Part shown: positions 5,349-7,645 of the stretch, piece by piece
How the letters are laid out: each line of letters opens with the position of its first letter
Position numbering within the stretch: the first letter of the stretch is position 1
DNA from: Candidatus Rokuibacteriota bacterium
Lineage (GTDB): Bacteria > Methylomirabilota > Methylomirabilia > Rokubacteriales > CSP1-6
Assembly: GCA_016209385.1 (NCBI GenBank)
Contig: JACQWB010000050.1
Span: 1-34,431, forward strand
DNA: 34,431 bases
Reading direction: 5' to 3'
The notes under the pieces: generated by a model
What the model saw: the letters and a program-made list of their open reading frames with translations, nothing else
Database searches by the model: none
What the model was told of the DNA's origin: nothing
Translations under genes and position numbers: made by a program

Positions 5349-5663
5349 ATGAATTATCGCGGAGTTCAAATATCCAAGGACAAGATTGCCGAGTTCTGCC
5401 GCCGGTGGAAGATCACGGAGTTTGCCCTGTTCGGCTCTGTCCTTCGAGAGGATTTTCGGCCGGACAGTGACATCGACGTTCTGGTAACTTTCGCGCCGGA
5501 TGCCAGGTGGAAGCTCGATGATCTGCTTGCCATGCGGGAAGAGCTGGCAGGCATCTTTGGCCATCCGGTGGACCTGGTCGAGAAAAGACTGGTCCAGACA
5601 AGCCCCAACTACATTCGCCGGAAGCACATCTTAAGCCACACCGAAACCCTGTATGTGGCGTGA
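5349..5663 (+). CDS. mntA: minimal nucleotidyltransferase (MntA-type antitoxin)
   Basis: A 104-aa protein of the minimal nucleotidyltransferase family. It has the polymerase-beta motif [20 protein letters not shown], with G29-S30 and metal-binding D41 and D43, plus a third carboxylate at D75 (PVDLVEKR). In MNT/HEPN type VII toxin-antitoxin pairs such proteins AMPylate and silence the HEPN RNase. All catalytic residues look intact. It overlaps the downstream toxin remnant (start 5653), the usual gene order and coupling for these pairs. Because the toxin is gutted, this antitoxin may now be an orphan. Confidence 0.85.
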
Positions 5664-5832
5664 TGCGGAGTCGGTCCTGGACATGCTCCAGGCCGCCCGC
5701 AAGATTCGGGAGTACGCGCGAGGCCTCTCGGAACTCCAGTTCAAGACAAGCAGCCTTCATCAGGATGCCATTCTTCGTGAGGTGCCCGATCTGGTCGAGC
5801 TGTTGACACGGATCGTACCCCCTGAGGAGTAA
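5653..5832 (+). pseudogene. hepT: HEPN/DUF86 (HepT-type) toxin with internal in-frame deletion
   Basis: A 59-aa ORF starting at ATG 5653, inside the mntA stop region. Residues 1-42 ([20 protein letters not shown] followed by YARGL and LHQDAILR) match the N-terminus of DUF86/HepT toxins. The last part, VPDLVELLTRIVPPEE, matches their C-terminus. Intact members are about 110 aa. The missing middle normally carries helix 3 and the Rx4-6H RNase motif. The two ends are joined in frame after LHQDAILR, so the protein may still be made but should lack nuclease activity. Homology is from recognition of the family motifs. Confidence 0.75.
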
Positions 5833-5857: not shown

Positions 5858-6169
5858 GATTGGAGTAAGATTGAGGGAATTTCCCTGAGTCCTCCGGGGC
5901 TCAGGGAGGGCGAGGCGAAGTTAGTGAAGGATCTGTGGGACTTCTGGCAGCGTAACCACTCCTTGGAAGAATACCGGAATCGTGAGATCTACCTGCTTCG
6001 GAATGTTCCAAGGGTGGGCGTGGGGTTCTTCGGGCGGAGCGGATTTTATCCCGACTTCATTCTGTGGATTCAGGAACGAGGCCGCAAGCCGACCCATGTC
6101 CGATTCCTTGAGCCTCACGGGCTTCACCACGGGGGACTGACGGGCAACCACGACAAGTTTGAAGCACTA
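5858..6169 (+). pseudogene. 5' part of a type III-like restriction endonuclease/helicase C-terminal remnant, interrupted by IS630
   Basis: The frame is open from just after TGA 5855-5857 and reads ISLSPPGLREGEAKLVKDLW, then REIYLLRNVPRVGVGFFGRS and GFYPDFILWI. This resembles the C-terminal PD-(D/E)XK-like region of DEAD/DEAH type III restriction subunits. Homology-like sequence starts before the GTG at 5924, so the gene has lost its 5' end. The expected D-x-K is E-P-H here, suggesting further decay. The frame runs into the IS630 terminal repeat at 6170. Excising the IS plus one TA copy restores an open frame ending at 7645. Family call is moderate. Confidence 0.6.
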
Positions 6170-6202
6170 AGTACACCGGACAGGGAATTCGTTCCTAGTT
6201 TT
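6170..6202 (+). repeat. IS630 left terminal inverted repeat
   Basis: 33 bp identical to the reverse complement of 7414-7446. It contains the transposase stop codon at its inner edge (6202-6204). Confidence 0.9.
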
Positions 6203-7351
6203 CATACGCAGACTGCCGGTCCCAGGGCTGACGTTGCAGCGAACTTTTTCTGCAGCTTGGCCGAGGTGTAGCTCCAGCGAATGGGCTTGGGATGTTTGTT
6301 GCGTTCCCGAAAATGATTCATGAGGACATGTTCCAAGTCCCGGAGGCTTTCGAAGTGATTCGGGGTCAGCACTTTTCTCTGGATCTGGCTGAACACGATC
6401 TCGATCTGATCCAACCACGAGGCGTGAACCGGGAGCCAGTGGAGTTTGACCTGGAAGGGAAGCTGCAGCGTCCGAATCCACGCCTCGATTTGCTTGGGGG
6501 CATGGGTGGAGCCGTTGTCCAGGATGAGATGCAGGCAGCGGATCCGCTTGCACCAGAGGCTGCCGAAGATCGTCTGGAGGAAGGCCTGGAATTCGACGAA
6601 GCGTTTTCGCTTGAAGCACCGAGCGATCGTCTCCCCCGTCGATACCAGCAAGGCCGCAAAGAGCTGCAAGGCCCCTTTGCGCTGGTACCGATCCCCGACC
6701 CGCAGGGGGAGCCCGGGCCGCGCCGGGCTGAGCGCGCCCTGGGTCTTCCGGGCTTGCAGGGAGGTCTTCTCATCGGCACAGACCACGATGTGCCCGCGCT
6801 GGGCGAGCGACTGGGCCTGGGCGTAGAGGTCCAACACGGGGATCGCTTTCTCCAGGAACCGGGGATCGGTCGGCTTTTGCCAACTGTGGTACTGCCAGGG
6901 TTTGATTTGTTCCGCGCGCAGCCAGCTCTTGATCGTGGACGGGGAGATGCTCTTGACGATGCCCTGCGCTTTGGCGACTTGGGCTAACTCCGTGCTCGAC
7001 CAACGCGAGAGCGGCTTCTTGGACTGCCGGGGGAGCGTGCAGGCAAGGGCCGTCACCTGGGCACGCTGGCTAGAGGGAAAAAAAGCGAGGCCCCCCGGGA
7101 CGCTCGCTGTCCACGAGAGAGCCCTTGCTTCTCCAGCGCTGACGCCATTTGCGGACCGTTCGAAACGTGCACCCCATCGCTCTGGCAATTTGCTGGTTGG
7201 TCCAGTCGGGATGCTCATAGGCCGTGACAATGACCTTGGCCCGAACGACTTCCGCGTAGGGAGCTGTGCGAAGCCGGGCAATGTGCTTAAGCCCCGCATA
7301 CTCTTTCGCGGTCAGCGTGACCTTGTGCGTTGGTTTGGGTCCACGGGGCAT
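6202..7351 (-). CDS. IS630-family transposase, needs a +1 frameshift
   Basis: The first frame (7351-7070, 93 aa) starts MPRGPKPTHKVTL and holds the helix-turn-helix NQQIARAMGCTFRTVRKWRQ; it ends RPGGPRFFSL-stop. The second frame continues PSSQRAQVTALAC to the stop at 6202 and holds the DDE catalytic domain: ADEKT, LDNGSTH and SWLDQIEIVFS, with 38 residues between the second Asp and Glu. The frames join at a run of seven T after CGC, where omitting one T gives a continuous protein of about 382 aa. That is a normal IS630 length. Slippage on the T7 run could produce it; otherwise this copy is inactive. Confidence 0.85.
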
Positions 7352-7413
7352 AGACAGCGCTTCCCCCCTGCAAGCCTTGGACCCAATGTACCAAACGGGC
7401 CTTCATGACCCAA

Positions 7414-7446
7414 AAAACTAGGAACGAATTCCCTGTCCGGTGTACT
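7414..7446 (-). repeat. IS630 right terminal inverted repeat
   Basis: 33 bp, exact reverse complement of 6170-6202. The TA at 7446-7447 overlaps its last base, so the element end is 7445 if the TA is counted as target duplication. Confidence 0.9.
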
Positions 7447-7447
7447 A

Positions 7448-7645
7448 AGGGAACTGAGTGCGCTGAGCCAGGAGCCTGCCTTTAAAACGAAGGGGATCTC
7501 GATGTCCGGGTATCTCCTGACTGACACAAAGCTTGAGGAGATCCCCGATGCCGGGGGGCGGGGATGGGAAACTCTTGAGCGGGACTATCCGCTGCTTCGC
7601 CAGCACGGAGGGTACGTCAAGAAGATCTTGGATTCCCCTGTCTGA
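7448..7645 (+). pseudogene. 3' part of the restriction-enzyme remnant split by IS630
   Basis: Joined to 6169 after removal of the IS and one TA, the frame continues as EAL then RELSALSQEPAFKTKGISMS, GYLLTDTKLEEIPDAGGRGW and ETLERDYPLLRQHGGYVKKI, ending at TGA 7643-7645. It has no start codon of its own in a sensible place. That both halves are open in the same frame is the main evidence that they were one gene. The C-terminal style (a small polar domain after the nuclease core) agrees with type III-like restriction subunits. Confidence 0.65.

Follow-up and report, generated by a model that had tools for sequence, protein, structure and literature searches.

In the type VII HepT-MntA toxin-antitoxin system of Shewanella oneidensis (SO_3166/SO_3165), an arginine and a histidine of the toxin HepT belong to the RNase site, and a tyrosine receives three AMPs from MntA, a minimal nucleotidyltransferase (MNT) antitoxin whose motif is defined as GSX10DXD (PMC7641770). 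In Legionella pneumophila, an MNT modifies the RX4HXY tyrosine of a HEPN toxin; the HEPN dimer is formed by helices 1 and 2 together with the Y-loop, and the MNT binds helices 3 and 4. Another MNT, that of Aphanizomenon, contacts its HEPN partner through the first and last HEPN helices (PMC11586414).

We analyzed a window of 34,431 nucleotides (the whole stretch of contig JACQWB010000050.1 in assembly GCA_016209385.1, Candidatus Rokuibacteriota bacterium) in which an intact mntA overlaps a hepT that has lost its centre. The locus is like the Shewanella system in being a two-gene operon with a GSX10DXD-bearing MNT and HepT-like ends, but its toxin lacks RX4HXY and is about half as long, and the proteins of the two systems have low sequence similarity, matching by fold rather than by sequence. 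The Legionella toxin, unlike that of the window, is intact, and the helices through which it contacts the MNT (3 and 4) lie within the segment deleted here. We regard the window's pair as very probably a type VII HepT-MntA module that was acquired horizontally, has a dead toxin, and is decaying in the expected toxin-first order; it is an ordinary first step of toxin-antitoxin decay and not a new system. That the toxin is lost first is established thinking for toxin-antitoxin modules. The chromosomal ccdO157 pair of E. coli, the subject of a 2009 study by Mine and colleagues that PMC10305079 cites, reportedly decays as well, the toxin often being inactivated and the antitoxin remaining, but ccdO157 belongs to an unrelated type II family and its decay was followed across strains of one species.

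An intact mntA and a hepT without its centre

The antitoxin gene mntA (5349..5663, + strand; 104 aa) was identified from Pfam NTP_transf_2 (7e-16, well above that model's cut-off), NCBIfam MntA_antitoxin (NF047752; 5e-12, with 45.6 bits falling below the 60-bit cut-off), and its relatives. Its catalytic motif, G29 S30 ... D41 x D43 (5433..5477, + strand), is complete in the alignment, so the metal site that the first-pass annotation took to be intact is indeed so. Relatives of MntA with approximately 60-71% identity occur in Nitrospira and, here and there, in other phyla, the top match reaching 71% over almost the full length, and such relatives are scarce among the 57 genomes of the window's own family; this distribution points to horizontal acquisition of the pair. 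The end of mntA and the start of hepT share an 11-nt overlap (5653..5663, + strand), the same layout as in intact relatives such as L006 and L032.

The overlapping gene, mini-hepT (5653..5832, + strand), encodes a 59-aa HepT remnant that matches the Pfam HepT-like model only at N-terminal positions 1-44 (5.6e-4; 20.1 bits against a cut-off of 23.5 bits). We gathered the neighbor genes of 87 related mntA copies and built a family profile of 113 positions using 59 intact HepT proteins encoded beside close relatives of MntA. Residues 1-43 of mini-HepT, corresponding to helix 1 and the start of helix 2 (5653..5781, + strand), align with profile positions 1-43 (40.3 bits), and the C-terminal peptide EVPDLVELLTRIVPPEE, residues 43-59 (5779..5829, + strand), aligns with positions 96-112 (8.9 bits), a score reached by none of 5000 shuffles. 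Recognizable at both ends, mini-HepT descends from a full-length HepT. The placement of residues 44-54 as undeleted helix 2, as given by MAFFT, gained only approximately 1.4 bits vs 8.9 bits for the C-terminal placement, and was rejected.

In most close relatives the overlapping mntA is followed by a full-length hepT of 113-114 aa, against which mini-HepT is short by 53-55 central residues, in frame; the loss of some 50-55 central residues, RNase motif included, was thus read correctly at the outset, and the full-length gene proposed for comparison exists with the same overlap. The junction lies at 5776..5784 (+ strand), uncertain by 1-2 codons, with approximately 53 codons lost. RX4-6H and the tyrosine that follows it (the adenylylated Y of RX4HXY) are invariant or nearly so among relatives, and both fall inside the segment missing from mini-HepT. 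At the positions equivalent to the deletion ends we found repeat matches of only 3-5 nt and no long direct repeat, and these in relatives rather than in the parental sequence, where the first-pass annotation had proposed to look for short direct repeats. Another relative, L065, has a hepT with a frameshifted deletion whose left end differs from that of the window. A 59-aa HepT conserved as an independent family, which the first-pass annotation had named as evidence against its reading, did not turn up among 60 relatives, in viral contigs or plasmids, or at the 87 MntA loci.

No solved HepT structure could be reached by sequence, and a fold search returned several. A full-length relative is predicted to have helices at 2-22, 27-32, 34-53, 56-61, 67-79, and 86-107, and its predicted fold matches solved HepT structures 6m6u, 5yep, and 7ae8 (best E = 0.01, probability 1.0). 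For mini-HepT, helices are predicted at 2-22, 27-32, and 34-54 (mean pLDDT 88), and the model overlays helices 1-2 of Shewanella HepT (6m6w_B: TM = 0.73, rmsd = 1.4; foldseek E = 0.7, not significant). The C-terminal peptide extends helix 2 in this model, which leans toward such a continuation because the alignment supplied to the predictor already placed the peptide there. The remnant is modeled as only the alpha1-alpha2 hairpin, which may be stable. Mini-HepT therefore has neither the catalytic site nor the tyrosine that is modified nor a Legionella-type MNT-binding surface, but retains part of a dimer surface.

Broken HepT beside intact MntA in relatives

At the 87 closest MntA loci, drawn from many phyla, GSX10DXD is intact in all but one (86/87), while approximately one-third are without an intact HepT: HepT is intact at 56, broken at 14 (15 if the window itself is included), without the catalytic motif at 3, and absent at 13, with 1 cut by a contig end. 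At L044, L048, and L020, a full-span HepT beside MntA has lost the catalytic arginine or the entire RX4-6H through small changes, and at L035:3266-3691 an otherwise complete HepT has an in-frame insertion of approximately 25 residues just after RX4H.

Because MntA served as bait, this set is biased, and we therefore ran the MntA and the HepT profiles against the 95 genomes of the phylum, pairing the matches by hand and inspecting some of them. Approximately 40 pairs are intact. An intact MntA accompanies a broken HepT at 13 loci, and the converse, an intact HepT with a broken MntA, was found at none in the 95 genomes. The 13 loci (G000 C50 and C256; G010 C51; G040 C1 and C17; G044 C15; G045 C1:608837; G053 C52; G059 C69; G081 C257; G085 C93, C137, and C191) represent 12 independent events, because G053 and G081 have one lesion in common, and the bias of 12 vs 0 events is significant (sign test, P of approximately 5e-4, two-tailed). 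The MntA call at G085 C93 comes from PF01909 only, and the HepT remnant at G010 C51 was spotted by eye. Furthermore, MntA occurs without a trace of HepT at 5 loci and HepT without a trace of MntA at 1, and both genes are damaged at 1 locus, G007 C8, as a fused frame. Some of the stops and frameshifts among relatives may be errors in metagenome-assembled genomes (MAGs), but sequencing errors should strike both genes about equally and hence do not account for the bias.

L156 (G053:C52) and L157 (G081:C257), in two species of another family, carry the same internally deleted and frameshifted hepT beside an intact mntA, and are approximately 96% identical across 1.1 kb. L151 (G007:C8, reverse strand from approximately 1293) is a 115-aa open frame in which an N-terminal piece of MntA runs into the middle of HepT; it stops just past RNVLIHH and is apparently the product of a deletion spanning the mntA/hepT border. 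At L158/L094 (G010:C51), directly 3' of an intact mntA, approximately 17 N-terminal HepT residues continue in frame into a DEAD/DEAH-type helicase.

The window's own genome (G000) contains further loci of the family. At L115 (C256, reverse strand 2096-2638), an intact MntA lies beside a HepT that ends just before RX4H and is fused in frame to a further segment, which we take to be phospholipase-D-like from its HxKxxLW ... GSPNFTSGR pattern, there being no database match. C244, C139, and C209 carry intact HEPN/MNT pairs; the HepT-like matches at C139 and C209, belonging to such pairs, were excluded from the decay count, as was a partial HepT at C201 that ends at the contig end. In this assembly, matches to the HepT profile with E <= 1e-10 are confined to C244 and C256.

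Decay of the island and alternative readings

Immediately downstream of mini-hepT, a type III restriction (Res) helicase survives only as a C-terminal remnant in two pieces. The first (5858..6169, + strand) matches positions 979-1091 of the 1154-position PADLOC REase_III profile (3e-8), and the second (7447..7645, + strand) is, by sequence and profile, in frame with it when the insertion sequence between them is omitted. Together they amount to the last approximately 165 codons, the N-terminal approximately 900 aa being missing; matches on halophile plasmids are annotated as DEAD/DEAH helicase or type III R subunit. The intervening IS630-family element (6170..7446, - strand) has 33-bp inverted repeats (6170-6202/7414-7446) and a transposase (6202-7299) that matches transpos_IS630 at 1e-38. 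The insertion within the Res remnant (5858-7645) is flanked by a TA or TAA target duplication. With Res both truncated N-terminally and split by IS630, the whole island around mntA and mini-hepT is being eroded, and the hepT deletion would be one of several lesions in it.

An in-frame deletion of approximately 160 bp took the middle of hepT, and with it the greater part of helix 2 together with helices 3 and 4, RX4-6H, and the tyrosine; we propose that the missing residues would leave the toxin dead. Such pairs would die toxin first because loss of MntA with an active HepT is costly or lethal and loss of HepT is free. MntA would thus have had to outlast the active toxin and, once redundant, would be free to decay later. 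The deletion, the intact MntA motif, the broken Res gene, and the toxin-first bias among relatives are observed; that toxicity has gone we infer from the residues lost, and the sequence of events and the lack of any present role are likewise inferred. With its frame open and the start overlap intact, mini-hepT probably still yields the 59-aa protein, but the open frame is a weak argument against decay because a random deletion keeps the frame one-third of the time.

Had the deletion been an assembly or binning error, with the organism carrying a full-length hepT, one would look to the fragmented state of the MAG (310 contigs) and to the failure to find a second assembly of the species with the locus. 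We consider this highly improbable: the central HepT segment is nowhere else in the assembly, the junction joins the homologous ends of a single gene exactly and in frame, relatives have at the equivalent positions no long repeats that might cause a collapse, and the adjoining Res gene decayed independently. Very little credence, likewise, is given to mini-HepT as a functional leftover whose hairpin would act as a dominant-negative by pairing with the cell's other HEPN toxins, or would remain able to bind MntA. Its confident hairpin model overlays solved HepT helices, helices 1 and 2 with the Y-loop are the dimer interface in Legionella (PMC11586414), and intact HEPN/MNT pairs do exist in the genome, but residues 44-54 derive from the C-terminal helix and not from helix 2, the Y-loop is deleted along with helices 3-4, mini-HepT is only distantly related to the genome's other HEPNs, the foldseek E-values of the hairpin are not significant, and the 59-aa form is conserved nowhere we searched. 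We would be surprised, then, if a hairpin made from the overlapping operon acted as a dominant-negative of intact HEPN toxins or as an MntA decoy, the former toxin becoming part of the antidote. The first-pass annotation had allowed that the mini-HEPN might still bind the antitoxin, which finds no support because the Legionella contact helices are deleted, although an Aphanizomenon-type site is partly kept and might still allow binding. It had also proposed a domesticated or neutralized pair; neutralization is the best reading, and domestication is unsupported, there being no 59-aa family and the surroundings being in decay.

A different proposal, compatible with a dead toxin and bearing only on why MntA persists, is that selection maintains MntA by itself, for anti-addiction or for cross-protection against the HepT of incoming elements. 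MntA often has a complete catalytic motif where HepT is broken or absent, one internally deleted hepT with an intact mntA is common to two species of another family, and anti-addiction has been described for ccd, but the same review calls it rare and modest in effect (PMC10305079). Recent loss of the toxin predicts an intact MntA equally well, and the two species with the common lesion are too close in this region to test selection; we consider such selection unlikely, if less so than an assembly error or a functional hairpin.

With decay of a toxin-first kind as the preferred reading, the window's locus by itself carries little weight, being one more decaying toxin-antitoxin pair. Its value is modest, as a clear example of toxin-first decay in HEPN-MNT modules, where the bias can be counted within one phylum. 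A genome that carries an intact mntA need not have a working toxin-antitoxin system.
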